The position numbers were made by a program, and so were the translations under genes. Source: Pseudomonadota bacterium (GTDB lineage: Bacteria; Pseudomonadota; Gammaproteobacteria; Burkholderiales; Burkholderiaceae_C). From it: DNA of 37,146 nucleotides. Every line of letters starts with the position of its first letter. Positions within the stretch are counted from its first letter, which is position 1. A model generated the notes under the pieces. The model was not told the origin of the DNA and made no database searches. It was given only the letters and a program-made list of their open reading frames with translations. Where the stretch lies: positions 375-37,520 of the forward strand of contig JAUNTQ010000024.1 of the NCBI GenBank assembly GCA_030538605.1. The letters run 5' to 3'. Shown here piece by piece: positions 3,320 to 33,084 of the stretch.

Positions 3320-3622
3320 TCAGGCGGCGGCCTGGGCCAGGCCCTTGACCTTGGCGGACAGGCGGCTCTTGTCGCGTGCGGCCTTGTTCTTGTGGAAGAT
3401 GCCCTTGTCGGCCACCGTGTCCACCACCGATTGCATGGTGGCGAAGGCGGCCTTGGCCTTGTCGAGGTCGCCCGCTTGCACGGCTTTCTCGACGTTCTTC
3501 ACCGTGGTGCGGTATTTGGAGCGCAGCGAGGTGTTCGCGGCGTTCAGTTGAATGTTCTGGCGGGCGCGTTTGCGGCCCGATGCCAGGCGGGGGTTCTTTT
3601 TCTTGGGCTTTCCAGCGGCCAT
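3320..3622 (-). CDS. rpsT: 30S ribosomal protein S20
   Basis: S20 binds 16S rRNA in the small subunit. The 100-residue product is highly basic, with the family hallmarks [16 protein letters not shown] near the N-terminus, TSLRSKYRT in the middle, and [16 protein letters not shown] near the C-terminus. The ATG is preceded by AAGGAA about 8 bases upstream. A TATAAT hexamer on this strand overlaps the stop codon of the upstream SDR gene, so rpsT has its own promoter. An intrinsic terminator lies at 3194-3221. Confidence 0.97.
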
Positions 3623-3670: not shown

Positions 3671-3676
3671 ATTATA
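3671..3676 (-). promoter_or_regulatory. -10 element (TATAAT) for rpsT
   Basis: A perfect TATAAT on the minus strand at 3671-3676 lies about 50 bases upstream of the rpsT start and overlaps the TAA stop of the preceding SDR gene. The -35 region lies inside that gene's last codons and is poor (CTTCGT at the expected spacing). Confidence 0.5.
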
Positions 3677-4463
3677 TGTCCATCTTGTGGAACACGAAGC
3701 GCGGCAGGTGACGGATGACGAACATGACGAGCGCCCACTTGCCCGGCACGTAGACCACGGGCTGGCCGCGGTCGATGGCGCGCACGATGGCCTGGGCCAC
3801 GCCTTCGACGGGGGCCAGGCGCGCGCCTTGGGCTTTGAGGTGCGCGGTCATGGGCGTGTCGGTGGGGCCGGGCTGGATGAGCACGGCGCGCACGGGGCTG
3901 TTTTCAAGCGCCAGGCGGTGTTGCAGCCCTTGCATGTAGCGCGCCACCAGCGCCTTGGCCGCGCCATACACGTAGTTGGATTTGCGCCCCCGGTCGCCTG
4001 CCACCGAACCGATGACGGCCACGGTGCCGCGCCCGGCTGGCTGCATGCGCTGCACAAAGGCTTCGGCGTAGAGCGCGGGCGAGGCGCCGTTGAGTGCCAG
4101 CGCCTGGGCGTTGGTGCCCAGGTCTTGCTGGCAGCGGGCCTGGTCGGGCAGCAGGCCGTGGGCGATGAGGGCGATGTCCACCGGTACGTCGGCGGCGGCG
4201 CGCGCCACGACGTCGTCAATGGCCTGCGGGTCGGTCGCGTCGCCCTGGGGCAGCACGCCGATGTGGGCCTTGGGCGCGCGCACGGCCAGATCGGCGGCGA
4301 TGCGTTCGAGCCGCGCCACGTCGCGCCCGATGAGGGTGATGCGCGCGGGCTGGCGCATGGCCCACAGGCGCGCGCAGTGCTCGGCAATGGCAGAGGTGGC
4401 GCCGACGATGGCGATGTGGTCGGCGCGGGCGGTTTGGGTGGTTTGGGGTGAAGAAGAATTCAT
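3672..4463 (-). CDS. DprE2-like 2-ketoribose reductase (SDR)
   Basis: Short-chain dehydrogenase of the decaprenylphospho-2-keto-ribose reductase type, the second half of the epimerisation that makes lipid-linked D-arabinofuranose. It shows a nucleotide-binding loop [11 protein letters not shown], an IAHG segment, a catalytic serine in IGSVAGDRG, and YGAAK with the catalytic Tyr and Lys. Its C-terminus, [17 protein letters not shown], closely follows the mycobacterial DprE2 tail as I remember it. The 263-residue length fits from the ATG at 4463; an upstream start near 4511 would run into repeat B. It lies downstream of the DprE1-like gene, with a palindromic repeat between them. NAD(P)H-dependence is inferred from family. 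Confidence 0.85.
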
Positions 4464-4489
4464 GACCGACAGGGTTCTATCAAAAAGGG

Positions 4490-4565
4490 AGCTGCTTGCG
4501 CTTGCTGTCAAACGATTTCAGATTCTTTCCTATCTGAAAAGCTTTCGTGACGTGCGCAAGCAGCT
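4490..4565. repeat. Palindromic intergenic repeat, copy B
   Basis: Arms AGCTGCTTGCG and CGTGCGCAAGCAGCT surround the same ACGATTTCAGAT core as copy A. It fills the gap between the DprE1-like and DprE2-like genes. Reading with those genes (minus strand), the palindrome is followed by CCCTTTTTGATAG, so it could attenuate transcription into dprE2. Short TATCAAAA sequences flank both sides. Confidence 0.8.
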
Positions 4566-4613
4566 ATCAAAATGTGATTTCGCGTTTTTCGCGTCTGGCT
4601 GTCCGCATCCGCC

Positions 4614-5933
4614 TCACGCCCCCATCAGCCGCCGCGACATGGCCGAGCTGATGCCCGGGTCGCGGTGCGGCAGAAATTCGGGCAAGCGCGGGTAGGCGGC
4701 CTCGAAATGCTGGCGCGGCCAGCGCGCGTCCTTGGCCAGGTACACGCGCCCGCCCGCTTCGCGCACGATGGCGTCCAGCCGCGCCAGCAGCGCCAGCGTG
4801 GTGCCACCCCGGTTGGGGAAGTCCAGCGCCAGCGTCACGCCCGGCTGCGCGAAACTCAGCATGCCGACACTTGGCACGTCGCCCAGCGTCTTGAGCACGG
4901 CCAGAAACGAGCCCTGGCCCGCGCGTGCAATGGCCGTCAGCATGGCCTGCACCGCCTCGCGCCCGCCGGCGTGGGGCACCACGCTCTGGTATTGATAGAA
5001 GCCGTGCGGGCCGTACATGCGACTCCAGCCGTGCAGGCTGTCCAGCGGGTAAAAAAATGGCTCGTAGTGCGCTTGCGCGCGCCCGGCCTTGCGGCGCTGC
5101 GCGTGGTAGTAGGCCAGGTTGAAAGCCTTGAGCGACAGCGGGTTGACCAGCGACACGGGCGGGGTGAAGGGCATGTGCCTGTCGCGCGCGCGCGGGGCTT
5201 CGCGCACCACGCCGCTGGCCGGGTTGGCGCGCATGAAGATACCGCGCGTGCCGTCGCGGCGCGCCAGGCAGTCAAGCCACGAGACGGTGTGCACCCAGCC
5301 GTCGCGCTCGGATTCGGCCGAGAGGGCGAAGAACTCGTCCAGCGTGGCGAAGGGCAGGGTTTCGGTGTCGAGCCAGGGGCCGTCGGTGCGCGCCAGTTGC
5401 AGCTCGACCTCGGTCATTACGCCCGTCAACCCCAGGCCGCCCACGGTGGCGGCGAACAGCGCGGCGTGCGGGCCTTGCGGGGTGATGTCGAGCACCTGCC
5501 CATCGGTGCGCGCCAGGCGGACGCGCCGCACGTGGTGGCCAAAGGTGCCCGCCGTGTGGTGGTTTTTGCCGTGCACGTCGTTGGCGATGGCGCCGCCTAC
5601 GGTGACGATTTGCGTGCCGGGCGTCACAGGCAGCAGCCAGCCGCGCGGCAGGCTCCAGCGCTGGATGGCTTGCAGCAGCATGCCGGCTTCGCAGGTGAGC
5701 ACGCCGGTGGCGTCGTCAAAGTGGATGAAGCGGTCCATGCCCATGGTGGCCCACAGCGTGCCGTGCGGGTTGAGCGCCACGTCGCCATAACTGCGGCCCG
5801 CGCCGTGGGCGATGCCGGGCTGCCCGGTGCGCAAAACGTGCGGCGCCTGCGCGGGGTCGCTCAACGGCACCCAGGCGTGGGGTTGGCGCGTCAGGCGGCC
5901 CCAGCTTTCGACGGGGGTGAGGGCTTCAGGCAT
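4614..5933 (-). CDS. DprE1-like FAD oxidase (polyprenylphosphoryl-ribose 2-oxidase)
   Basis: FAD-dependent oxidase of the DprE1 type, which oxidises C2 of polyprenylphosphoryl-ribose so that DprE2 can reduce it to arabinose. The FAD-binding part carries HGAGRSYGD (about residues 43-51), the TPGTQIVTVGGAIANDVHGKNHH block (residues 104-126) and GGLGLTGV. Near the C-terminus LALDFP and YLAKDAR match the mycobacterial active-site region. The catalytic lysine is kept (K401), but the position of the benzothiazinone-reactive cysteine is alanine (A369). The length of 439 is close to the mycobacterial enzyme. It overlaps the end of gtrA by 8 bases, so the two are co-transcribed and probably translationally coupled. 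Confidence 0.88.
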   Translation of the reverse strand: MPEALTPVESWGRLTRQPHAWVPLSDPAQAPHVLRTGQPGIAHGAGRSYGDVALNPHGTLWATMGMDRFIHFDDATGVLTCEAGMLLQAIQRWSLPRGWLLPVTPGTQIVTVGGAIANDVHGKNHHTAGTFGHHVRRVRLARTDGQVLDITPQGPHAALFAATVGGLGLTGVMTEVELQLARTDGPWLDTETLPFATLDEFFALSAESERDGWVHTVSWLDCLARRDGTRGIFMRANPASGVVREAPRARDRHMPFTPPVSLVNPLSLKAFNLAYYHAQRRKAGRAQAHYEPFFYPLDSLHGWSRMYGPHGFYQYQSVVPHAGGREAVQAMLTAIARAGQGSFLAVLKTLGDVPSVGMLSFAQPGVTLALDFPNRGGTTLALLARLDAIVREAGGRVYLAKDARWPRQHFEAAYPRLPEFLPHRDPGISSAMSRRLMGA

Positions 5934-6348
5934 GGTGCGCGTCGGCGCGGGCGGCGGGCGCGCGGAAGACGAAGTGCTTGTCCAGCTGGTACTTGGCCAG
6001 GTAGCCGATGGCCAAGCCCAGCGCGCCGCCCAGGTAGCGCATCTCGCGCGTGCCGTACAGGGCGTGAAAACCGAACTCGAAGCCCCAGAAGATGACCGTG
6101 GTGAGCACGCCCATCAGCGTATAGAGCATGAAGGTCTGGCCGTCGTGCGCGGCGCTCTGGGCCTTGAAGCGGAAGATCCAGCGCTTGTCCAGCACGTACT
6201 TCACCACCAGCCCCACCGCCGTGCCCGCCAGCACCGACAGCGCAATGGCATAAGGCCCGTGCCAGATGCGCAGCCACACGTCTTGTGCGCCGATGTTGGC
6301 CGCCGTGGCCAGCGCGGCGAAAAGCGTGTACAGCAGCGCGATGCGCAT
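5926..6348 (-). CDS. GtrA family membrane protein
   Basis: A 140-residue protein with four predicted membrane segments (about residues 5-25, 35-55, 75-97 and 103-122), recognised as GtrA. GtrA proteins are implicated in transfer or flipping of polyprenyl-linked sugars, and the mycobacterial homologue Rv3789 lies next to DprE1. Conserved features include VGLVVKYVLDKRWIF near the middle and the matching KYQLDKHFVF near the C-terminus, an internal-repeat look typical of the family. The ATG at 6348 has no strong Shine-Dalgarno sequence. It is the first gene of the minus-strand operon gtrA-dprE1-dprE2, divergent from the UbiA gene by only about 35 bases. A role in moving lipid-linked ribose or arabinose is inferred. 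Confidence 0.85.
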   Translation of the reverse strand: MRIALLYTLFAALATAANIGAQDVWLRIWHGPYAIALSVLAGTAVGLVVKYVLDKRWIFRFKAQSAAHDGQTFMLYTLMGVLTTVIFWGFEFGFHALYGTREMRYLGGALGLAIGYLAKYQLDKHFVFRAPAARADAHHA

Positions 6349-6383
6349 GGGGCAGAATCAGAAGGTTTACTTGGAGCAGGGTT

Positions 6384-7259
6384 TTGGATCATAACGGTGC
6401 CACTTTCACGCCCGCGCAGCGCGTGCGGGGCCTGCTGCGGCTGATGCGCCCGCGCCAGTGGGTCAAAAACGCCTTCGTGCTGGCGCCGCTGCTGTTCACC
6501 GGCCAGTTCGCGCAGGCGGCCAGCGTGCGGCAGGCGCTGCTGGCGATGGTGCTGTTCTGCCTGGCCTCGTCGGCCACCTACGTGGTCAACGACTGGCGCG
6601 ACATCGAGCGCGACCGGCGCCACCCCACAAAGCGGCACAAGCGCCCCATGGCCGCCGGCAGCGTCACGCCGCCCATGGCCGCCGGCCTGCTGCTGGTGCT
6701 GTACGCGCTGCTGGCGCTGGGCGCGCTGGCGCAGCCGAAGGTGATGGCGGTGATCGGCATCTACATGGTGCTCAACCTGGCCTACAGCTTTGGCCTGAAG
6801 CACGAGCCGGTGGTGGACATCTTCATCATCGCCAGCGGCTTCGTGCTGCGCGTGATTGCGGGGGCTTATGCGCTGGATGTGCCCGTGTCGTCGTGGATGT
6901 TCGTCACCACGCTGTGCCTGGCGCTGTATCTGGCGGCCATCAAGCGCCGGCAGGAGCTGGCGCGCAGCGGCACCGACAGCCGCGAGGTGCTGCAGAAGTA
7001 TTCGGTGGGCCTGATCGACCGCTATGCGGAGATGGCCGCCACCGGTGCGCTGGTGTTCTACAGCCTGTTCGTCATGTCGGCGCACACCGAGCTGATCGTG
7101 ACCATTCCGCTGGTGCTGTTCGGCATCTTTCGCTACTGGTACGTGGTCGAGCAAAAAGGCGGCGGCGAATCGCCCACCGACACGCTGCTGGCCGATTGGC
7201 AGCTGATGGCTACCGCCGTGGCCTGGGTGCTGCTGTGTGCGTGGCGGCTGATGGGGTAG
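6384..7259 (+). CDS. UbiA-type polyprenyl-phosphate phosphoribosyltransferase
   Basis: Integral membrane prenyltransferase of the decaprenyl-phosphate 5-phosphoribosyltransferase branch (mycobacterial Rv3806c, Azorhizobium NoeC), which joins phosphoribosyl pyrophosphate to polyprenyl phosphate as the first step to lipid-linked arabinose. Diagnostic are RLMRPRQWVKN near the N-terminus and the first Asp motif NDWRDIERDRRHPTKRHKRP (NDxxDxxxD). Seven to nine membrane segments follow. I chose the TTG at 6384 because GGAG lies 7 bases upstream; GTG 6423 or ATG 6444 are alternatives. The frame is open further upstream, but it overlaps gtrA there. UbiA-like proteins of other function (quinone or haem synthesis) are less likely given the neighbours. 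Confidence 0.85.
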   Translation: MDHNGATFTPAQRVRGLLRLMRPRQWVKNAFVLAPLLFTGQFAQAASVRQALLAMVLFCLASSATYVVNDWRDIERDRRHPTKRHKRPMAAGSVTPPMAAGLLLVLYALLALGALAQPKVMAVIGIYMVLNLAYSFGLKHEPVVDIFIIASGFVLRVIAGAYALDVPVSSWMFVTTLCLALYLAAIKRRQELARSGTDSREVLQKYSVGLIDRYAEMAATGALVFYSLFVMSAHTELIVTIPLVLFGIFRYWYVVEQKGGGESPTDTLLADWQLMATAVAWVLLCAWRLMG

Positions 7260-7263
7260 GGCG

Positions 7264-7686
7264 ATGGATTTCAGTTACCTCATCACCCCGTTTGCCGCCT
7301 GGCTGGTGGCCGGTTGCCTGAAGTTCGCCATCAACAGCCTGCGGGCGGGCAAGCTGGCCTTTGGCCTGATCGGCTACGGCGGTCTGCCCAGCAACCACAG
7401 CGCCATCGTCAGCAGCATGGCGGCGCTGATTGCGCTGCGCGAAGGCATCGGCCACCCGGCCTTTGGCGTGGCCGTGACCCTGGCCTTCATCGTGCTGCTG
7501 GACGCCAGCAGCCTGCGCCGGCAGGTCGGGCGGCAGGCCGAAGCCATCAACCGCCTGCGCGGCCCGCAGGACACGCCCCTGCGCGAGCGCATGGGTCACA
7601 CGCCAGTGGAAATGGCCGCCGGGGTGGCGGTGGGCTGCGCGGTGGCGTGGGCAGTGAACGGGGCGGCTGCGCGGTTTTGGGGGTGA
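7264..7686 (+). CDS. DUF212 (divergent PAP2) membrane phosphatase candidate
   Basis: A 140-residue protein of the 'acid phosphatase/vanadium-dependent haloperoxidase-related' family. It contains GGLPSNHSAIVSS, corresponding to the PSxH phosphatase motif of PAP2 proteins, then FIVLLDASSLRRQVGRQAEAIN, the family's DAxxxRRxxGxxA block. Three to four hydrophobic segments are visible. It starts 4 bases after the UbiA stop. In mycobacteria a PAP2 protein (Rv3807c) is assigned to dephosphorylate decaprenylphosphoryl-ribose-5-phosphate, so the same job is a good guess here, although the two families are only distantly related. The next gene starts 2 bases after its stop codon. Confidence 0.75.
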   Translation: MDFSYLITPFAAWLVAGCLKFAINSLRAGKLAFGLIGYGGLPSNHSAIVSSMAALIALREGIGHPAFGVAVTLAFIVLLDASSLRRQVGRQAEAINRLRGPQDTPLRERMGHTPVEMAAGVAVGCAVAWAVNGAAARFWG

Positions 7687-7688
7687 GG

Positions 7689-9164
7689 ATGGACGTGAAG
7701 CATCAGGGCACGCGCGTTCAGCGCGCGGTCATCTTGTTGGCGGCTGCGTTGTTTTTGCTGGCCGCCTTGCGCGCGCTGGCATTCTGGGCACACGAGCCGA
7801 TGCTGGCGTACGCCAACAACTACGACCAGATCCGCGCCATGCGCTTTCTGCAAGTGCATCCCGACAAGCCCGACATGAGCGAGCCGCTTGGGGGAACGCC
7901 CGGCCAGCCCTGGCGCTATTTCCACCACGAAAAAGGCTGGGGCGAGATGATGTACCCGTCGAGCGACCTGGCCGTCAAGGCGGTGCAACTGGTGGTGCCC
8001 AACCTGTGGCGGCCTGCGGGGGCGCTGGTGGACATCAAGCAGGGGGCGTGGCTGTTGCTGGCCGTGTGGCTGGTGGCGATGGCCTGGGTGGCGTGGCGGC
8101 TGGGTCGTGCCAATGCCTGGCACGCGCTGGGTTTTTCGGCCTGGCTGCTGCTGGTGGCCGACCCGGTGAACCTGGTGTTTCTGAACACGTGGTACGCCGA
8201 ATTTCCGGCCTTTGCCGCGCTGACGGGGCTGGTGGGCCTGGGCTGGCTGTGGCTGGCGGGCTGCTGCCGCACGCGGGGGGCGGTGTGGTGGGGGTTGGGG
8301 ATGCTGCTGTTTCTGGCCACCAATCGCAACCAGTACATGTATTTGCCGCTGGCGTTGCTGCCGGTGGCGTGGTGGGTCTGGCGCGCGCGTACGCAGGCGG
8401 CGGGGCGGCCCTCGCCTGTGCTGGCACTGGCGGCGGTGGCCGTGGTGGTGGTGCCGCTGCTGCTGTTTGGTGCCAAGCTGGGGCAGGTCAAACAGGCCAA
8501 CAGCGCCAATCGGGTGAACACCGTGCTGGGGGCCATGCTGCCTGCCGCCAGCGACCCCGAGCGCATGCTGCGTCATCTGCGCCTGCCGCCTTCGTGCGCG
8601 CAGTTCTCGGGCCAGACCTGGTTCAGCACGCCTACCGACGCTTACCGCGCCGATTGCCCGCGGGTGCTGCGCATGTCGCTCACCAGTCTGGTGCCCGCGC
8701 TGCTGGCCGACCCGGCGGCGCTGGGCCGCATGGTGATGACGGCCACGCGCAACCACCAGGGCTTTGACCAGGCGCTGCTGGGGCAGGTGCAAGGGGTCGA
8801 GCAGGGCCGCGTGGCGGCGCTGCCTTCGCTGGCCGCGCGCTCGGTGAACGATGGCCTGCGGGCTTTGCCCACACCCGGGTGGCAGGCGCTGGTGGTCGTA
8901 TCGCTGCTGCTGCCGGGCGTGATGGCCGCATGGGCGCTCAAACGACGCGAACACGCCTGGGGCCAGGCGTGGCTGGCCTTGCAGATTGCGCTGGCCTATG
9001 TGTTTTTTTCCTCGCTGCTGGGTGACGGCTATATCGAGATCGAGCGCCATGCGGTGCTGAGCTACAGCCTGGGGTGCCTGCTGGCGGTGGCGCTGGTGGG
9101 GTGGTTGGTGCATGTGGGGGCTGCAAGCCGTCGCGAGGCTGTTGTGAAAGAGGTGTTGTCTTGA
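7689..9164 (+). CDS. Polytopic GT-C-like glycosyltransferase candidate
   Basis: A 491-residue membrane protein with roughly ten hydrophobic segments. After the first segment (about residues 12-32) comes a periplasmic stretch with ANNYDQIRAMRFLQ and GWGEMMYPSSD, whose acidic residues could serve as the catalytic Asp of a GT-C enzyme. A second conserved-looking patch is NTWYAEFPAF. A larger loop with three cysteines (about residues 290-330) is followed by more segments. I cannot place it in a named family with certainty; it vaguely resembles WsfD/TfpW-type transferases. Context, directly after the lipid-linked arabinose genes and overlapping the next transferase by 4 bases, suggests it uses polyprenyl-phospho-arabinose. 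Confidence 0.6.
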   Translation: MDVKHQGTRVQRAVILLAAALFLLAALRALAFWAHEPMLAYANNYDQIRAMRFLQVHPDKPDMSEPLGGTPGQPWRYFHHEKGWGEMMYPSSDLAVKAVQLVVPNLWRPAGALVDIKQGAWLLLAVWLVAMAWVAWRLGRANAWHALGFSAWLLLVADPVNLVFLNTWYAEFPAFAALTGLVGLGWLWLAGCCRTRGAVWWGLGMLLFLATNRNQYMYLPLALLPVAWWVWRARTQAAGRPSPVLALAAVAVVVVPLLLFGAKLGQVKQANSANRVNTVLGAMLPAASDPERMLRHLRLPPSCAQFSGQTWFSTPTDAYRADCPRVLRMSLTSLVPALLADPAALGRMVMTATRNHQGFDQALLGQVQGVEQGRVAALPSLAARSVNDGLRALPTPGWQALVVVSLLLPGVMAAWALKRREHAWGQAWLALQIALAYVFFSSLLGDGYIEIERHAVLSYSLGCLLAVALVGWLVHVGAASRREAVVKEVLS

Positions 9165-10717
9165 ATGCGTTGAAACCCGCGTCCTTGCCTGCTTGGCTGT
9201 TGGCAGTGGCGATCCTGTTGTTGCTGGCATTGGGCTGGGGCGTTCGCTTTGCGGATCTGGGGCAGCAAAGCCTGTGGGAAGACGAGCTTTTTTCGGCCGA
9301 CATCATCGTGAGCCGCCCCTTGCTTGCCGCGCCGGGCCAGCCGTGGCTGGAACGCTCGACGCTGTCGCAGGTCAAGCCCGGCGACACCTTCTGGACAGTG
9401 AAAGGGGCCGACCAGTCGCCGCCGCTGTTCGAGCTTGTGGGCAAGCTGACGACCCGGGTGTTTGGTGAGGGCGAGTTGGGTTTGCGCATGACCAGCGCCT
9501 TGTCGGCGGCGCTGCTTTTGCTCTGGCTGGCGCTGCGTGCCTGGCGCTGGCGTGCGGCGCCCGAAGGCACGGTGTATCTGACGGTGCTGGCCTTGATGGC
9601 GTCATCGGCCCTGCTGGTTTTTTATGCGCAGGAAGCGCGCGCCTACAGTCTGGGCATGGTGTTGGCCACCGTGCTGGTGGTGAAGTTCTGGGAGCGGCTG
9701 GTGCAGGGCTGGCGGCAGGCGCCGCTGCCCGGCTGGGGCGAGGTGGCACTGGCGGCGGCGGCGTGCATGGCGCACTACAACGCGCTGGTGCTCACCGGCC
9801 TGTTGTTCGTGGCGTATGCGCTGGAGGCCGTGCGGCGCCGGCATTGGTCGGCGCTGGCGCGCATGAGTTTGGTGGCCGTTGTGGTGCTGGCCTGGCTGGG
9901 TGTGGGCTACATGGGGTTTGATTCGGCTGCACAAGGTCATATTGGCTGGGTGCCTCCCATGAGCTACATGCAGGCCTTGCGCCTGGTGATGGAAAGCCTG
10001 GCGGCGCGTGCCATGGGCTACCCCTTCGTGGCACTGCTTGCGCTGCTGGTTGGCGTGGGCTTGGCGGTGGCGCTTGTCGGGGTGTGGCGCGCCCACCCTG
10101 CCGATGCCCAGGCGGCGACCCGGCGGCGGCACATTGGCGCTTTGGCGGTGATGGTGCTGCTTCTGCTGGTTTATCTGATGATCTCTGGCTATGTGGTGCA
10201 CAAGAGCCGGATCGAGAACGTCCGGCACTTGGTGTTTGCGCTGCCGGTGGTTTTCATCGTGGCAGGCGCGGTGGTGAACATGGTCAGCGCGGGCCGTCAG
10301 TGGGTGGCGGTCTTGCTGGTGATGGCACTGACAGCCACCCAGGTGCCCGCCCTGAAGACGGCGCATGCCGTGCAGAAAGGCGACTACCGTGGCGCGGCGG
10401 CCTTCGTGCTGCAACGTCTGCAAGACGGTGACACGGTGGTGGTGGGCCAGATGGCCAACGCGCTGGGCGCGCACGGCTATTACCTGAACGCGAGGTCGGG
10501 GCGGGCAATGCAGACAAGGCTGCTGAACGGTGTGGAGGCCATTGCCGCGATGTGCGCCGACATGGCAAACCAGCCGCGCTGGGGCGTGGTTTCGTCTACA
10601 CACCACACCGATCTGTTCAACACACTGGAAAACACCTGCGGCAGCAGCGGCTGGCGCATCGAGCGTTTCCAGGCGCCGGGCGTGCTGGCGCAGGTGTGGA
10701 CGCGGCAGGTGCCTTGA
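9161..10717 (+). CDS. ArnT/PMT-like (GT39-type) membrane glycosyltransferase
   Basis: A 518-residue protein with about eleven membrane segments and the topology of GT-C enzymes. The first periplasmic loop holds SLWEDELFSADII, with the acidic DE pair typical of GT39 and ArnT-like transferases, then DQSPPLFELVGKL, the PPL motif of the same loop. YAQEARAYSLGMV in the third segment is also typical (QxARxY). The C-terminal about 120 residues form a soluble domain. The start is a TTG at 9161, which overlaps the previous stop (TTGA) and has AAGAGG upstream. Such proteins move a sugar from a polyprenyl phosphate to an acceptor outside the membrane. Donor and acceptor are not shown by sequence; arabinose is inferred from neighbours. 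Confidence 0.75.
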   Translation: MNALKPASLPAWLLAVAILLLLALGWGVRFADLGQQSLWEDELFSADIIVSRPLLAAPGQPWLERSTLSQVKPGDTFWTVKGADQSPPLFELVGKLTTRVFGEGELGLRMTSALSAALLLLWLALRAWRWRAAPEGTVYLTVLALMASSALLVFYAQEARAYSLGMVLATVLVVKFWERLVQGWRQAPLPGWGEVALAAAACMAHYNALVLTGLLFVAYALEAVRRRHWSALARMSLVAVVVLAWLGVGYMGFDSAAQGHIGWVPPMSYMQALRLVMESLAARAMGYPFVALLALLVGVGLAVALVGVWRAHPADAQAATRRRHIGALAVMVLLLLVYLMISGYVVHKSRIENVRHLVFALPVVFIVAGAVVNMVSAGRQWVAVLLVMALTATQVPALKTAHAVQKGDYRGAAAFVLQRLQDGDTVVVGQMANALGAHGYYLNARSGRAMQTRLLNGVEAIAAMCADMANQPRWGVVSSTHHTDLFNTLENTCGSSGWRIERFQAPGVLAQVWTRQVP

Positions 10718-10752: not shown

Positions 10753-12306
10753 TTGAGTCTTTTCAAATCTGCCTCCACCGTTTCTCTGCTCACTTTGCTG
10801 TCGCGCATCACGGGGTTGGTGCGCGATCTGCTGATGGCGTCCAGCTTTGGGGTGAGCGGGTTGACGGATGCGTTCAACGTGGCGTTTCGCATTCCCAACC
10901 TGCTGCGGCGGCTGTTTGCCGAAGGGGCGTTCAGCCAGGCGTTTGTGCCGGTGCTGGCGCGCTCGAAGGCGGCGCGGGGCGAGGAGGCCACGCGGCTTTT
11001 GATCGACGCGGTGGCCACGGTGCTGGCCTGGATATTGGTGCTGACCTGCGCGGTGGGGATGTTGGCCGCGCCGCTGCTGGTGTGGGCGCTGGCCAGCGGG
11101 CTGGATGAGGCGAGCTTTGATGCGGCCGTGTTGATGACGCGCTGGATGTTCCCTTACATCGGCTGCATGTCGCTGGTGGCGCTGGCCGCGGGCATTCTCA
11201 ATACATGGAAGCACTTTGCGGTGCCGGCGGCCACGCCGGTGCTGCTCAACCTGTGCATGATCGCCGCCGCCTGGCTGGGCGCGCCGTGGTTCGGGCGCAT
11301 GGGGCTGGAGCCAATCTACGCCATGGCGGCGGGCGTGATGGTGGGGGGCGTGGTGCAGTTGGCGGTGCAGGTGCCTGCGCTCAAGCGCCTGGGCCTGCTG
11401 CCGCGCATTGGCCTGGGCCTGCGCCGGGTGCGTGATGCGTGGCGCGATGCGGGGGTGCGCCAGGTGCTCACGCTGATGCTGCCTGCGCTGCTGGGCGTGG
11501 GGGTGGCGCAGCTGTCGCTGCTCATCAACACGCAGATCGCCTCGCACCTGGCCGCAGGCAGCGTGACCTGGGTGTGGTACGCCGACCGGTTGATGGAGTT
11601 CCCGACCGCGCTCTTGGGTGTGGCGCTGGGTGTGGTGCTGACGCCGCAACTGGCGGCGGCGCGCGCGGCGCAGGACGATGCGCGCTATTCGCACATGCTG
11701 GACTGGGGCTTGCGCCTGGTGCTGCTGCTGGCGCTGCCCTGCGCGGCGGCGCTGCTGGTGTTTGGCACGCCGCTGATTGCCACGCTGTTTCACCACGGGC
11801 GCTTTTCTGCCGACGACGTGCAGCGCGTGGCGCTGGCCCTCAGCGGTTATGGCGTGGGCCTGCTGGGGCTGGTGGCGGTGAAGGTGCTGGCGCCGGGCTA
11901 TTACGCCAGCCTGGACATCCGCACGCCGGTGAAGATCGCCATTGTGGTGCTGGTGGTCACGCAGTTGCTCAACGTGCTGCTGGTGCCGCTGATGGCGCAC
12001 GCGGCGCTCACGCTGTCCATCGCGCTGGGGGCCATGCTGAATGCGGCCTGGCTGCTGGTGGGGCTGGTGCGGCGCGGCAGTTATCGGCCACTGGCAGGCT
12101 GGCCCGTGTTTGCCGCGCAGGTGCTGGCGGCCACGCTGCTGATGAGCGCCTTTCTGGCCTGGGCGGCGCAGGCGTTTGCCTGGCTGGCGCTGGGCGCGTG
12201 GGTGCGCGCGGGGCTGCTGGCGGGCCTGATCGCGGTGGCCGGTGCCATCTACTTTGGCACGCTGGCGCTGTGCGGGCTGAAACTGCGGCAGTTGCTGCGC
12301 CGCTGA
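10753..12306 (+). CDS. murJ: Lipid II flippase MurJ
   Basis: MurJ is the MOP-family membrane protein that flips lipid II to the periplasm for peptidoglycan synthesis. The 517-residue product has the full set of about 14 membrane segments and the conserved N-terminus with SRITGLVRD, TDAFNVAFRIPNLLRRLFAEGAFSQAFVP. The start is TTG at 10753, immediately giving the expected MSLFKSAS. It lies 35 bases after the GT39-type gene, so the envelope glycosylation genes may read into murJ. The SirB1-like gene follows in the same direction. Confidence 0.96.
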   Translation: MSLFKSASTVSLLTLLSRITGLVRDLLMASSFGVSGLTDAFNVAFRIPNLLRRLFAEGAFSQAFVPVLARSKAARGEEATRLLIDAVATVLAWILVLTCAVGMLAAPLLVWALASGLDEASFDAAVLMTRWMFPYIGCMSLVALAAGILNTWKHFAVPAATPVLLNLCMIAAAWLGAPWFGRMGLEPIYAMAAGVMVGGVVQLAVQVPALKRLGLLPRIGLGLRRVRDAWRDAGVRQVLTLMLPALLGVGVAQLSLLINTQIASHLAAGSVTWVWYADRLMEFPTALLGVALGVVLTPQLAAARAAQDDARYSHMLDWGLRLVLLLALPCAAALLVFGTPLIATLFHHGRFSADDVQRVALALSGYGVGLLGLVAVKVLAPGYYASLDIRTPVKIAIVVLVVTQLLNVLLVPLMAHAALTLSIALGAMLNAAWLLVGLVRRGSYRPLAGWPVFAAQVLAATLLMSAFLAWAAQAFAWLALGAWVRAGLLAGLIAVAGAIYFGTLALCGLKLRQLLRR

Positions 12307-29129: not shown

Positions 29130-31268
29130 GCGTTGCGCGCGGTGTGCGTGCGTTGTTGCGCGCGATCAGCGGCGGCGGCGCGCGCGTGCGTTCAACTGGC
29201 GGCGGCCCGCGAAGGCGGCACCTGCCATCAGCAGGCTGAGCAGCAGCAAGGCCTGCGCGCTGGTGGTGGGCACGGCAGCGATGCCGCCCCCGCCGCCACC
29301 GCCTGCACCAGCCACGACAGTGGCCGGAGCGGTGCTGGTGTTGTTGGCGGGGTCGTCGCCTTGCAGCCAGGTGGGCACGGCGATGGTGGCGGTGTTGTCG
29401 ATCTGCGTGCCGGGGCCGCGCCCGCGCCGACGGCGGTGTCGATGGTGAAGGTCAGGGTGCCGCCGGCAGGCAGGTTCAGCGGCACGTCGGCCAGGTTGCC
29501 CGTGCCGTCTGGCGGGCACACGGCGTTGCCGGTGGCGGTGCAGACCCAGTTGCCGTAGCTCAGGCCGGGCGGGGCGTTGTTGGTCAGGGTGGCACCGTTG
29601 GGCACGTCGACCGTGCCGTTGTTGCTGACGACGACGGTGTATTGCGTGTTGCCGCCGGGTGTCAGCGGGCCTGCGGGGCCGTTGATGACCACGCCCAGCT
29701 CGCCGCCGGTGGGGGCGTTGACCGGGTCGCTGGTGGTGCTGCGGTTGTTGGTGGTGTCGGTTTCGTTGACCGCGCCGTCCACCACGATGGTGGCGACGTT
29801 CTCGATCTGCGTGCCCGAGGCCACGCCGGCGTCCACCGTGGCGTCGATGGTGAACACCATTTCGCCATCGACGGGCAGCGTGACGCGCAGGGCGTTCAGG
29901 TCGCCCGTGCCGCTGGCGGCCGGGCACACCGTGGGGGCGGCGGCGGTGCACGTCCAGCTGCCGTAGGTGATGCCGGCGGGGGCGGCGTTGCTCAGCTGCG
30001 CACCGGCCAGCATGTTGCCGTGGTTGGTGACGGTGACGGTGTATTCGGTGCCCTGGCCGGCTTGCAGCGTGGCGCCGGTGCGCGCGATGACCACGCCCAC
30101 GTCGCCGTCGCCGGCAGTGGTCACCGTGGCTTCGGCCACGCCGGTGTTGGACAGGCCCGAAGCCGACCGCAGGCGGCCGGGCGGCACCGTGTTGATGAGG
30201 TTGCCGACGGCTTCACTGACCACGGTCACGCGCAGGTAGCAGGTGGTGTCGGCGGGCAGCGTGGCGCCGGTGACGCCCACGCTGGTGGCACCGGCCACGG
30301 CCTGGATGCTGGCGGGCGCCACCGCGCAGGCGGCGGGCGTCAGGCTGGCGTCGGGCGTGGGGGCCACCACCATGCCTTGCGGCAGGTTGTCGGTCAGGCT
30401 CACGCCGGTCTGGGTGGGCGCGCCTTCGGTGTTGCTGAGGGTCAGGGTCAGCTCCGACGTCTGGTTGATGCCGGTCAGCGTGGTGGGGTTGAACGCCTTG
30501 CTCAGGCCAGGCCGGCGGCGGACAGCGTGACGTTGGCGCTGGCCGCAGTGCGGTTGCTGACGCCTTCGGCGGTGGTGACCGCGCCCGCGGCCAGGGTGTT
30601 GGTGCGCACGCCGCTGGCACCGGCGGTGGCGCCCACGCGCACGGTGATGACGCAACGGGACAAGGCGGTGCTGTTGGCGAGCGGGTCGATGACGCCGCCC
30701 GTCAGTTGCACGCCGGTGGGCGACACGGTGGCGCTGCCCGGGGCGCCGCAGGTGTTGGTCAGCACGTCTTCGGCCAGCAGGTCGGCGGGGAAGGCGTCGT
30801 TGAAGGCGACACCCGTCAGCGCCGCGGCGCCGGCGTTGCGGGTCAGCGTGATGGTCAGCGTGGCCCTGGTCTGGCCCGACGAGATGGTGGTGGCGTCAAA
30901 GCTTTTGGCCACACTCAGCGCGTCGCGCACATAGCTTTCGGCCCATGTTGGTGCCGTTCCAGGTGACGTCGGGGCCGGTGCCGATGCGGGTGACCAGGGC
31001 GTTGGGGCTTGCGCCGACCGGGGCGGTGGTGCTGTAACCCAGGGTGTTGCGATGCCAGCTGTTGGCGGTGGCATCACCGCTGATGCGTACCGGCACGGTG
31101 ATGGTGCAGGTGCCGTTGATGGTGCCCGAGCGCGCAGGCACGGTGCCGCCGGTCACGGTGATGACGGCGTTGTCGCCAGACACCCCCACGCTGCTGCCGC
31201 AGGTGTTGTCGGTATTGCCATTGACGCGGAAGGCGGTGCTGGGGGTGGTGCTGTTGGTCGGGCGCATC

Positions 31269-31304
31269 AGCTTCAGGTCGTCGATCAGCTTCAGGTCGTC
31301 GGTC
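31269..31304. repeat. 18-bp tandem duplication inside the DUF11-type pseudogene
   Basis: AGCTTCAGGTCGTCGATC is followed at once by AGCTTCAGGTCGTCGGTC (one mismatch). It encodes the doubled peptide DDLKLIDDLKLM and keeps the frame. Confidence 0.8.
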
Positions 31305-32046
31305 AGGCAGACGATGGTGGCGGGCTGCACGGCCGAGTTGTGCAAGGTGATGACCATGGGGAAGGTGTTGGTCTGCACGGCGATGTTGGTGGTGCTCAGG
31401 CGTTGCGTGCCGTTGAAGGTCTTGGTGGCGCTCACGCCGCCGCCAGGGCCGGGGCCGCCGGGGTTGATGACGACGCTGTCACCCGCCACGCTGGGCACCA
31501 CGCCGCCAAAGTTGGGCGCGCCCAGGTTGCTGACGCCGTTGGTGCGGGTGATGGGGTGCTGCCGACGTTCTCACCCCGGTAGGTGAACCGGATGAAGCAG
31601 CTTGAATAATTTTCGGTGCTGGGTGCGCCATCCAGCGAACCGCCGGTGTAGGTAACCGATCCGCTGTCCGACGCGACGGTGGCCGTGCCGCCACAGGTGT
31701 TGTTGCTGGCACCGGAGGAAATACCCGTGGCCACCACGCCCGCCGGCAGGTTGTCGGTGAAGGTGATGGGGGTCAGGGTCGTGCTGTTGAAGTTGCGGAT
31801 TTCCAACCTGAAGGTGGATGTACCGTTGTGGTTCACCGGGTTGGCATCGAAGCTCTTGACGATTTGCGCGCCGGTGCGCAGGTTTACACGGCCTGAAAAC
31901 GCGGCGGTGTTGCGCCCGCCGTTGTCGGCGGTGACGCCGCCCACGGCGATGGTGTTGTCGAGGTTGGCGCTGAGGTAGGCGTTGGGATCGACAGGGGTGA
32001 CGTTGAAGGTGAGCGTGCAACTGCCCAGGGCGGGAATGGTGCCGCC

Positions 32047-32617
32047 GGTCACCCGCGCTGCACGACCCGCAGCACGCAGCGCCAAGGCAAGCGCCTGCCC
32101 GCGCGCAAGGGCCAGCCGTTGGCGGCGCGGCTTGTGCTCAGCCAGGTACGCGACAGCGCGGGCCGGGTGCTGGCCCAGTGGTACTTGCTCAGCAACGAGG
32201 ATGAATCGGTGGGAGCCAGCACGCTGGCGCTGTGGTACTACTGGCGCTGGCGCATCGAGTCGTACTTCAAGCTGCTGAAATCGGCGGGCCAGCAGGTGGA
32301 GCACTGGGAGCAAGAAAGCGGCCCAGCGATCTTCAAGCGATTGCTGCTGGCGTCGCAGGCGTGCGCGCTGGCGTGGCGTCTGATGCGCGCAAGCGGTGAG
32401 CAAGCCGAGCACACGCGGCAGCTGCTCACTCGCCTGTCGGGCAGGCAGATGAAACGCGCCAGACCCGTGACGGCCAGCGCTTTGCTGGCGGGCATGTACA
32501 TGCTGTTCGTGATGAATGAGACGCTGGAGCATTACTCACCTGCGGAGATCGCCCAGCTCACGCGCCAGGTTCGTGGCTTGGGGCCGGGGCCTTCAAATGC
32601 GGATGTGTAGATACCTA
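32047..32617 (+). mobile_element. IS4-type transposase remnant (C-terminal part)
   Basis: The plus strand reads an open frame to the stop at 32608-32610, with clear transposase homology from about 32055 (RQGKRLPARKGQPLAARL onward). YYWRWRIESYFKLLKSAGQQ carries the Y-2-R-3-E-6-K signature of the IS4 superfamily, with the third catalytic acid. The first two catalytic Asp residues and the 5' half are missing, and there is no clear start or pair of inverted ends. It is therefore a dead fragment. It sits inside the DUF11-type gene, apparently with loss of host sequence. Confidence 0.85.
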
Positions 32618-33084
32618 TGCCGTGATGGTGCAGGCGCCGGCCGTGGTGCCGACGCGGGCGGGCACGGTGCCGCCCGTCAGTTGCAGGTTGCTGCCTTGCA
32701 AGGTGGCGGTGCCGCTGCCGCAGTTGGTCTGGGCGTTGGTCACGGTCAGGCCCGCCAGCGGCACGGCCAGCGCGGTGCCGCTGGCGGCCGTGTCGTTCTG
32801 GTTGATGAGGTTGACGGTGAGCGTGGCCGGCTGGCCCGCCACCACGGTGGAGGGGTTGAACGCGTGGTTCAGCCCCAGGGCCGCCAGCGCGGCCCCGCTG
32901 AAGGCGCTGCCGGCGAGCGCCAGGCCGCAGGCGCGCAAAAAGCGCGATTTCATGAAAAACCTTCCTTGTTTGACTTTGAACTGTCGATGAATGGCCCGCC
33001 ACGGAGCCGGCAGGCAGAAGACGGCACAGCGTGCCCTTGACGAGGCCGCAGAACCTGCACCGTAGGGCAGGGGGTGTGCTGCCC

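Follow-up and report, generated by a model that had tools for sequence, protein, structure and literature searches.

A divergent gene unit predicted to make lipid-linked D-arabinofuranose, probably for type IV pilin glycosylation, in a betaproteobacterium

A divergent five-gene unit predicted to make a lipid-linked D-arabinofuranose (D-Araf) donor is found at positions 3672-7686 of a 37,146-nucleotide stretch of a Burkholderiaceae_C draft genome (GenBank assembly GCA_030538605.1, contig JAUNTQ010000024.1, positions 375 to 37,520; "the window" denotes this whole stretch). Genes for a DprE2-like reductase, a DprE1-like oxidase, and a GtrA-family protein are read leftward, and those for a UbiA-type phosphoribosyltransferase and a DUF212 protein rightward; two genes for GT-C-like membrane proteins follow, and the whole lies between rpsT and murJ (Table 1). 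An initial annotation had proposed that the four core steps of lipid-linked D-arabinofuranose synthesis, together with GtrA, are encoded side by side here, and family and PDB matches agree with this, pointing to a pathway of the Pseudomonas pilin type. Each gene that it named proved to be a long open frame. The reductase frame opens at 4511 (TTG), the likely start being ATG 4463; the starts of ubiA, for which TTG at 6384 is proposed, and of the second GT-C-like gene are uncertain.

Table 1. Genes of the unit, the genes that follow it, and its borders in the window
Feature	Position	Strand	Basis
DprE2-like short-chain dehydrogenase/reductase (SDR), 2-keto to D-arabino step	3672..4463	-	NCBIfam and PDB matches, YxxxK
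DprE1-like flavin adenine dinucleotide (FAD) oxidase	4614..5933	-	NCBIfam and PDB matches, alignment to solved DprE1
GtrA-family small membrane protein, proposed lipid-linked-sugar flippase	5926..6348	-	Family profiles
UbiA-type polyprenyl-phosphate phosphoribosyltransferase	6384..7259	+	Profiles, PDB match, conserved residues
DUF212 divergent PAP2 protein, proposed 5'-phosphatase (lipid-linked ribose-5-phosphate)	7264..7686	+	Pfam, residues, co-occurrence
GT-C-like membrane protein 1, WsfD-like (NF051875)	7689..9164	+	NCBIfam; relatives at other cassettes
GT-C-like membrane protein 2, ArnT-like by weak model	9161..10717	+	Foldseek; relatives at other cassettes
rpsT, left border of insertion	3320..3622	-	
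murJ, right border of insertion, outside the system	10753..12306	+	

The best PDB matches were decaprenyl-phosphate phosphoribosyltransferase for the UbiA-type protein (8j8j, E 3.4e-42), DprE1 for the oxidase (E 5.4e-69), and decaprenylphosphoryl-2-keto-erythro-pentose reductase (DprE2) for the reductase (E 3.8e-26). Entry 8j8j is the Mycobacterium tuberculosis enzyme (PMC11127046). Among three NCBIfam models for decaprenyl-phosphate phosphoribosyltransferase, the UbiA-type protein exceeded the cut-off of NF008978 (233 versus 207) and fell below those of NF008977 (223 versus 234) and NF008976 (182 versus 474). Residues N62, D63, D66, D70, R181, and E184 (numbered from 6405) were present in 89 of 89 aligned rows; by their spacing, they correspond to N247, D248, D251, D255, R366, and E369 of the Citrobacter enzyme, shifted throughout by 185. 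Mutants of that enzyme indicate that N247, D248, D251, and D255 matter, while R366A and E369A were still active in vivo (PMC11127046).

The oxidase shares the DxHGKNHH, QYQ, and AKD stretches with solved DprE1 in an alignment, and solved DprE1 scored about equally against it (236 bits) and against DprE1 of Pseudomonas PA7 (255 bits). In the reductase, Y182 and K186 form the YxxxK motif, present in 66 of 66 aligned rows; two near-conserved SDR positions deviate, and the other conserved residues that were checked are present. We take the three oxidase stretches and the Y182/K186 pair to be catalytic. The GtrA-family protein scored 189.9 bits on its profile (cut-off, 50). DprE1 rows of at least 80% coverage, 70 in number from the 88 loci examined, fell into two lineages, 36 with 55.5-83.5% and 34 with 37.4-47.0% identity to the window protein and none between. 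Both DprE1/DprE2 lineages accompany one UbiA family (DprE1 rows of loci L002-L081, L142, and L166-L169), and both DprE1 lineages are found in loci or genomes with TfpW, the putative pilin glycosyltransferase described below. The split suggested that a DprE1/DprE2 module had been swapped against a common core. A UbiA tree labelled by DprE1 lineage requires four label changes, two of them forced by starred branches; an approximately unbiased (AU) test with six rows removed (one duplicate and five long branches) failed to reject one clade, however (p 0.455), so a swap is not claimed. A Tsukamurella "FAD-binding oxidoreductase," tried as an actinobacterial DprE1 outgroup, turned out not to belong to DprE1, with an end branch of 10 and 29% identity to the window protein, and was disregarded.

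The small protein encoded after ubiA had been put forward as a phosphatase candidate, and the comparative data strengthen the proposal. Its only Pfam match is DUF212, "divergent PAP2" (113.7 bits; cut-off, 26.5). Residues K20, P42, S43, H45, H112, and E116, which in our view resemble the PAP2 signature, were present in 70 of 70 aligned rows. In a sample of 299 family genomes, DUF212 (E 1e-6 or better) occurred in nine, all within the ten that have a close stand-alone UbiA (p 2e-16), and in each it starts 8-29 bases past the end of the UbiA match; the tenth, G225, gave no DUF212 match at E 1e-6. The cassettes of genomes G028 and G114 instead encode a UbiA with an N-terminal HAD domain (Pfam HAD, 38.0 and 45.1 bits), with DprE1 of 56-57% identity beside it; the G028 fusion scored 640 bits on NF006088 (cut-off, 351), and searches for DUF212 gave nothing in the 18-kb stretch of G028 or in the G114 genome. 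In Citrobacter, a HAD domain fused to UbiA takes off the 5'-phosphate (PMC11127046). Because DUF212 co-occurs with UbiA, and a predicted fused HAD phosphatase replaces it in these variants, the DUF212 protein is likely to be the 5'-phosphatase of this route; its exchange for an unrelated enzyme counts as good comparative support for such a role. Among the papers listed by literature searches, with subscription papers mostly outside reach, none beyond those cited dealt with DUF212 in this pathway or with this system in this group. A further cassette, in G012, has a 538-residue frame matching UbiA beside DprE1 and DprE2. The cassettes at L191:8034-9485, L190:6307-7758, and L192 (G028, G114, and G012) are all of the D-Araf type, with DprE1 at 56-58%; a HAD-UbiA fusion stands in for UbiA plus DUF212, by Pfam in G028 and G114 and presumably in G012.

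A scan with UbiA gave 235 candidate stretches, 219 of them encoding relatives, and the best 80 loci were kept. Besides the window's own locus (L001), at least 69 carry DprE1, at least 64 DUF212, at least 61 DprE2, and at least 58 GtrA, all of these counts being lower bounds because many loci are cut by contig ends. The grouping of the five genes is not by chance. The rarity implied by the initial annotation was overstated: the same unit is present in many Gamma- and Betaproteobacteria, and such pentofuranose systems are described as widespread in PMC11127046. Five loci (L016, L020, L041, L065, and L075) have UbiA and DUF212 without DprE1 or DprE2 in the retrieved stretch, those of L075 lying about 10 kb off. 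UbiA relatives of less than 60% identity were also found in 1 of 50,697 phage records (MT837543.1) and 100 of 72,556 plasmid records, suggesting that systems of this kind are widely mobile.

Within the genus the cassette is patchy, a close UbiA being present in 8 of 29 genomes. murJ was found at E 1e-60 or better in 25 of the 29, and 16 of these have rpsT 88-296 bases away, divergent, with no unit between. In seven of the eight carriers (G000, which is this genome, G003, G011, G018, G021, G026, and G027) the unit or its GT-C-like gene lies at murJ, the contigs of G018 and G026 ending short of its remaining genes. The eighth carrier, G024, has its unit at another place, with rpsT next to murJ. 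Two noncarriers, G013 and G025, have no rpsT within about 1.5 kb upstream of murJ. The rpsT-murJ gap is the insertion point of the unit. murJ had been read as pointing to a surface acceptor; since rpsT and murJ are ordinary neighbors in this genus, with the unit inserted between them, it is uninformative on function, and their adjacency without the unit rules it out as a member of the system.

The acceptor had been thought to be one not yet described, a claim that fails because the genome has a pilA-tfpW pair on another contig. Thirteen places with an N-methylation motif were found in the genome, and contig C234 encodes a 142-residue pilin (Pfam Pilin, 51.6 bits) followed by a 625-residue TfpW homologue. 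The latter has about ten transmembrane (TM) segments by a simple hydropathy count and is 35% identical over 613 residues to PA7 TfpW (E 2e-113), for which the gene beside the PA7 pilin in L152 was the reference. TfpW is an oligosaccharyltransferase encoded beside pilA (PMC12369383). At E 1e-20 or better, 4 of the 29 genus genomes have a TfpW-family gene, and each of the four belongs to the eight with UbiA at 76% or more; three other genus genomes have a UbiA match of 30-37% only. The family sample has such genes in 6 of 299 genomes, all among the ten with UbiA at 63% or more (hypergeometric p 2e-10), or, counted by genus, in 4 of 141, all within the seven close-UbiA genera (p 2e-6). In the eight genomes with such a gene across both samples, a pilin gene directly precedes it in four (G000, G056, G181, and G315), and one small three-TM gene separates the two in G018 and G235; pilin, tfpW, and cassette share one 16-19 kb stretch in G056, G181, G235, and G315. 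In Hydrogenophaga taeniospiralis (L019), a tfpW-family gene stands next to the donor unit.

The pilA-tfpW pair of this genome (L197:3116-5743) forms a low-GC island (GC content, 0.465) within a contig of 66-69% GC. Downstream of pilA-tfpW lies a gene for a PglL-type O-oligosaccharyltransferase (Wzy_C_2, Wzy_C, and PglL_A), at a distance of about 4.2 kb here (L197:9981-11543, G000:C234) and 0.5 kb in G018 (L162:5865-7481); the pilin may therefore also be glycosylated in a second way.

A proteobacterial precedent for D-arabinose is provided by noeCHOP of Azorhizobium, the acceptor being the Nod factor. In Pseudomonas paraeruginosa, the genes for the D-arabinofuranose glycan on type IVa pili are PSPA7_6245-6251 (PMC12369383), and from its gene content we infer that L028, from PA7, is that locus. 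It has the same divergent five-gene unit in the same order, with identities of 70% for UbiA, 77% for DUF212, and 66% for GtrA, next to the 35% for TfpW; at 41% and 40%, DprE1 and DprE2 belong to a distinct lineage. The defining glycan of that system is alpha-1,5-linked D-arabinofuranose on the pilin. As there, UbiA, DUF212, GtrA, DprE1, and DprE2 are found here in one locus, and a type IV pilin gene has a TfpW homologue next to it, on another contig of the draft assembly. PA7/Pa5196 (pilA-tfpW-tfpX) and this genome alike have pilA-tfpW at a separate genomic place from the donor unit. Unlike PA7, the window has two extra GT-C-like genes and an rpsT-murJ insertion site, and no small three-TM, tfpX-like gene was called beside tfpW.

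Mycobacterial decaprenyl-phospho-arabinose synthesis (Rv3806c, Rv3807c, DprE1, DprE2, and Rv3789) has the same order of reactions, with homologous UbiA, DprE1, and DprE2; the phosphatase candidate differs, being a DUF212 protein and not an ordinary PAP2 protein of the Rv3807c type. In two actinobacterial plasmids the neighbor of UbiA is annotated as "phosphatase PAP2." Rv3789 is a GtrA-like protein. It is called an SMR-family transporter in PMC11127046. The same paper describes the three-component pentofuranose system (GT136) of Citrobacter youngae O1/O2, which resembles the window in its UbiA-type phosphoribosyltransferase, periplasmic GT-C transferase, and auxiliary epimerization; its phosphatase is a fused HAD domain and its flippase is annotated as MATE, where the window has DUF212, GtrA, and an arabinose-type oxidase/reductase pair. 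Judged from sequence alone, candidate genes of each class of such systems (PPPRS, flippase, GT-C, and phosphatase) are present.

Of the two GT-C-like proteins, the first matches the NCBIfam WsfD model (91.3 bits; cut-off, 80). Neither passed any Pfam cut-off, and BLASTP found them similar neither to each other nor to TfpW. AlphaFold models built from three-row alignments had a mean predicted local distance difference test (pLDDT) score of 46.3 and, for protein 2, 55.8; the latter, a low-confidence model, gave ArnT (5ezm) as the sole Foldseek match under E 0.001 (E 7.6e-6, TM score 0.35). Relatives of protein 1 are encoded in or beside the cassettes of G026 and G012 and, at 23% identity, next to UbiA-DUF212 in Comamonas koreensis (L065); those of protein 2 occur in or beside the cassettes of G024, G026, and G028 and at murJ in G018. 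Both are present in G289, and both lie away from the cassette in G114. At E 1e-15 the family sample has protein 1 in 3 and protein 2 in 6 of 299 genomes. Against a tight link to the cassette, G048, G175, and G258 have weak relatives of protein 2 (27-31%) and lack a UbiA match at E 1e-20. In three carriers, G003, G011, and G021, murJ follows DUF212, with no GT-C gene between. In G018, a gene for a GtrII-type glucosyltransferase (L144:4550-6058; Pfam Glucos_trans_II, 86.3 bits) lies between the end of the unit and the relative of protein 2 at murJ, which again suggests that this slot takes different transferases. The likeliest reading of both proteins is that they are GT-C transferases using the same donor, and the pair probably uses it to form another linkage or to modify a second acceptor. 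It is conceivable, if somewhat doubtful, that they represent two unrecognized families of periplasmic D-arabinofuranosyltransferases, unrelated to TfpW in sequence, which travel with D-Araf cassettes of either phosphatase version and either modify another surface glycan or lengthen that of the pilin.

We consider it likely that the unit makes polyprenyl-phospho-D-arabinofuranose for type IV pilin glycosylation, with TfpW as the transferase. Gene content, conserved residues, gene order, and co-occurrence are observed directly, and from these we infer the reactions, the sugar, and the pilin as acceptor. Removal of the 5'-phosphate would fall to the DUF212 protein and inversion of C2 (ribo to arabino) to the DprE1-like oxidase together with the DprE2-like reductase, and GtrA would help the resulting lipid-linked sugar to reach the periplasm; there the TfpW homologue encoded on C234 would pass the sugar to the pilin. 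The system looks like pilin arabinosylation of the P. paraeruginosa type in a further group, with a plausible new transferase pair. If P. paraeruginosa is a guide (PMC12369383), the modification may serve, among other things, to guard the cell against pilus phages.

Several points weigh against this assignment. The oxidase and reductase fall short of the NCBIfam equivalog cut-offs: the oxidase has DprE1 as its top match, at 332 bits (curated cut-off, 500), and the reductase scored 155.7 bits on the DprE2 model (cut-off, 250), its top match being an unnamed SDR model, NF005489 (234.9 bits; cut-off, 267). The assembly is a draft, 91.9% complete, with the cassette and tfpW on separate contigs. 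In composition, the regions flanking the pair on C234 agree with the window (r 0.949 and 0.987), but a stretch of another genus member reaches 0.952, so the agreement speaks for the genus being right, not for the strain. The hypergeometric p values overstate the case, the genomes being related and not independent. No pilin gene was found beside the TfpW-family gene in G026 and G027, and the TfpW-family proteins of G026, G027, G235, and G315 are distant (24-30% identity to that of this genome). A TfpW-family match (E 1e-20) is missing from four of the eight genus and four of the ten family carriers of a close UbiA; other acceptors or transferases must therefore exist.

A different main acceptor is one rival reading. 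The donor could be made as proposed and go chiefly to lipopolysaccharide or exopolysaccharide via the two GT-C-like proteins, with the pilin secondary or unused. The GT-C genes come directly after the unit, relatives of one or both recur at the cassettes of G024, G026, G012, and G028 and at murJ in G018, and lipid-linked pentofuranose donors are known to serve O-antigen side chains (PMC11127046). The presence of pilA-tfpW in the genome and the fact that neither GT-C protein is general to carriers, being confined to a few family genomes and missing before murJ in three genus members, make this rather unlikely.

Another pentofuranose in place of D-arabinose, either unchanged ribose or xylose, is a more remote prospect. 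Ribose and xylose versions of such systems are known (PMC11127046), and the five loci with UbiA and DUF212 but no DprE1/DprE2 in the stretch, which are among loci of more than 16 kb, suggest that the core might run without epimerization, although in L075 the DprE genes are not far away. The window itself, however, has both DprE1 and DprE2 homologues, which PMC11127046 links to arabinose; their catalytic stretches are kept, and DprE1 of either lineage occurs with TfpW. We regard a change of sugar as improbable. That the cassette is a silent or decaying import is less probable still. Its patchiness in the genus, its insertion between rpsT and murJ, and the low GC content of the pilA-tfpW island would fit such an origin, but all frames are open, the conserved residues checked are intact save for the two SDR positions, and the tetranucleotide composition of the cassette fits that of the rest of the window (r 0.982).

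Synthesis of D-Araf for pilin glycosylation, the reading that we prefer, would extend the Pseudomonas D-arabinose pilin system to Betaproteobacteria with a named candidate acceptor gene. The comparisons also provide strong evidence for DUF212, a family of unknown function, as the 5'-phosphatase of the route. Culturable environmental relatives, such as H. taeniospiralis, could allow study of a lipid-linked arabinose chemistry that is in outline common to the essential mycobacterial pathway. Elsewhere in the window, at 29228-32953 on the reverse strand, frames with repeated "FNP(T/S)T" and "KTFNG"-like stretches resemble, by eye, pieces of a large repetitive surface protein.

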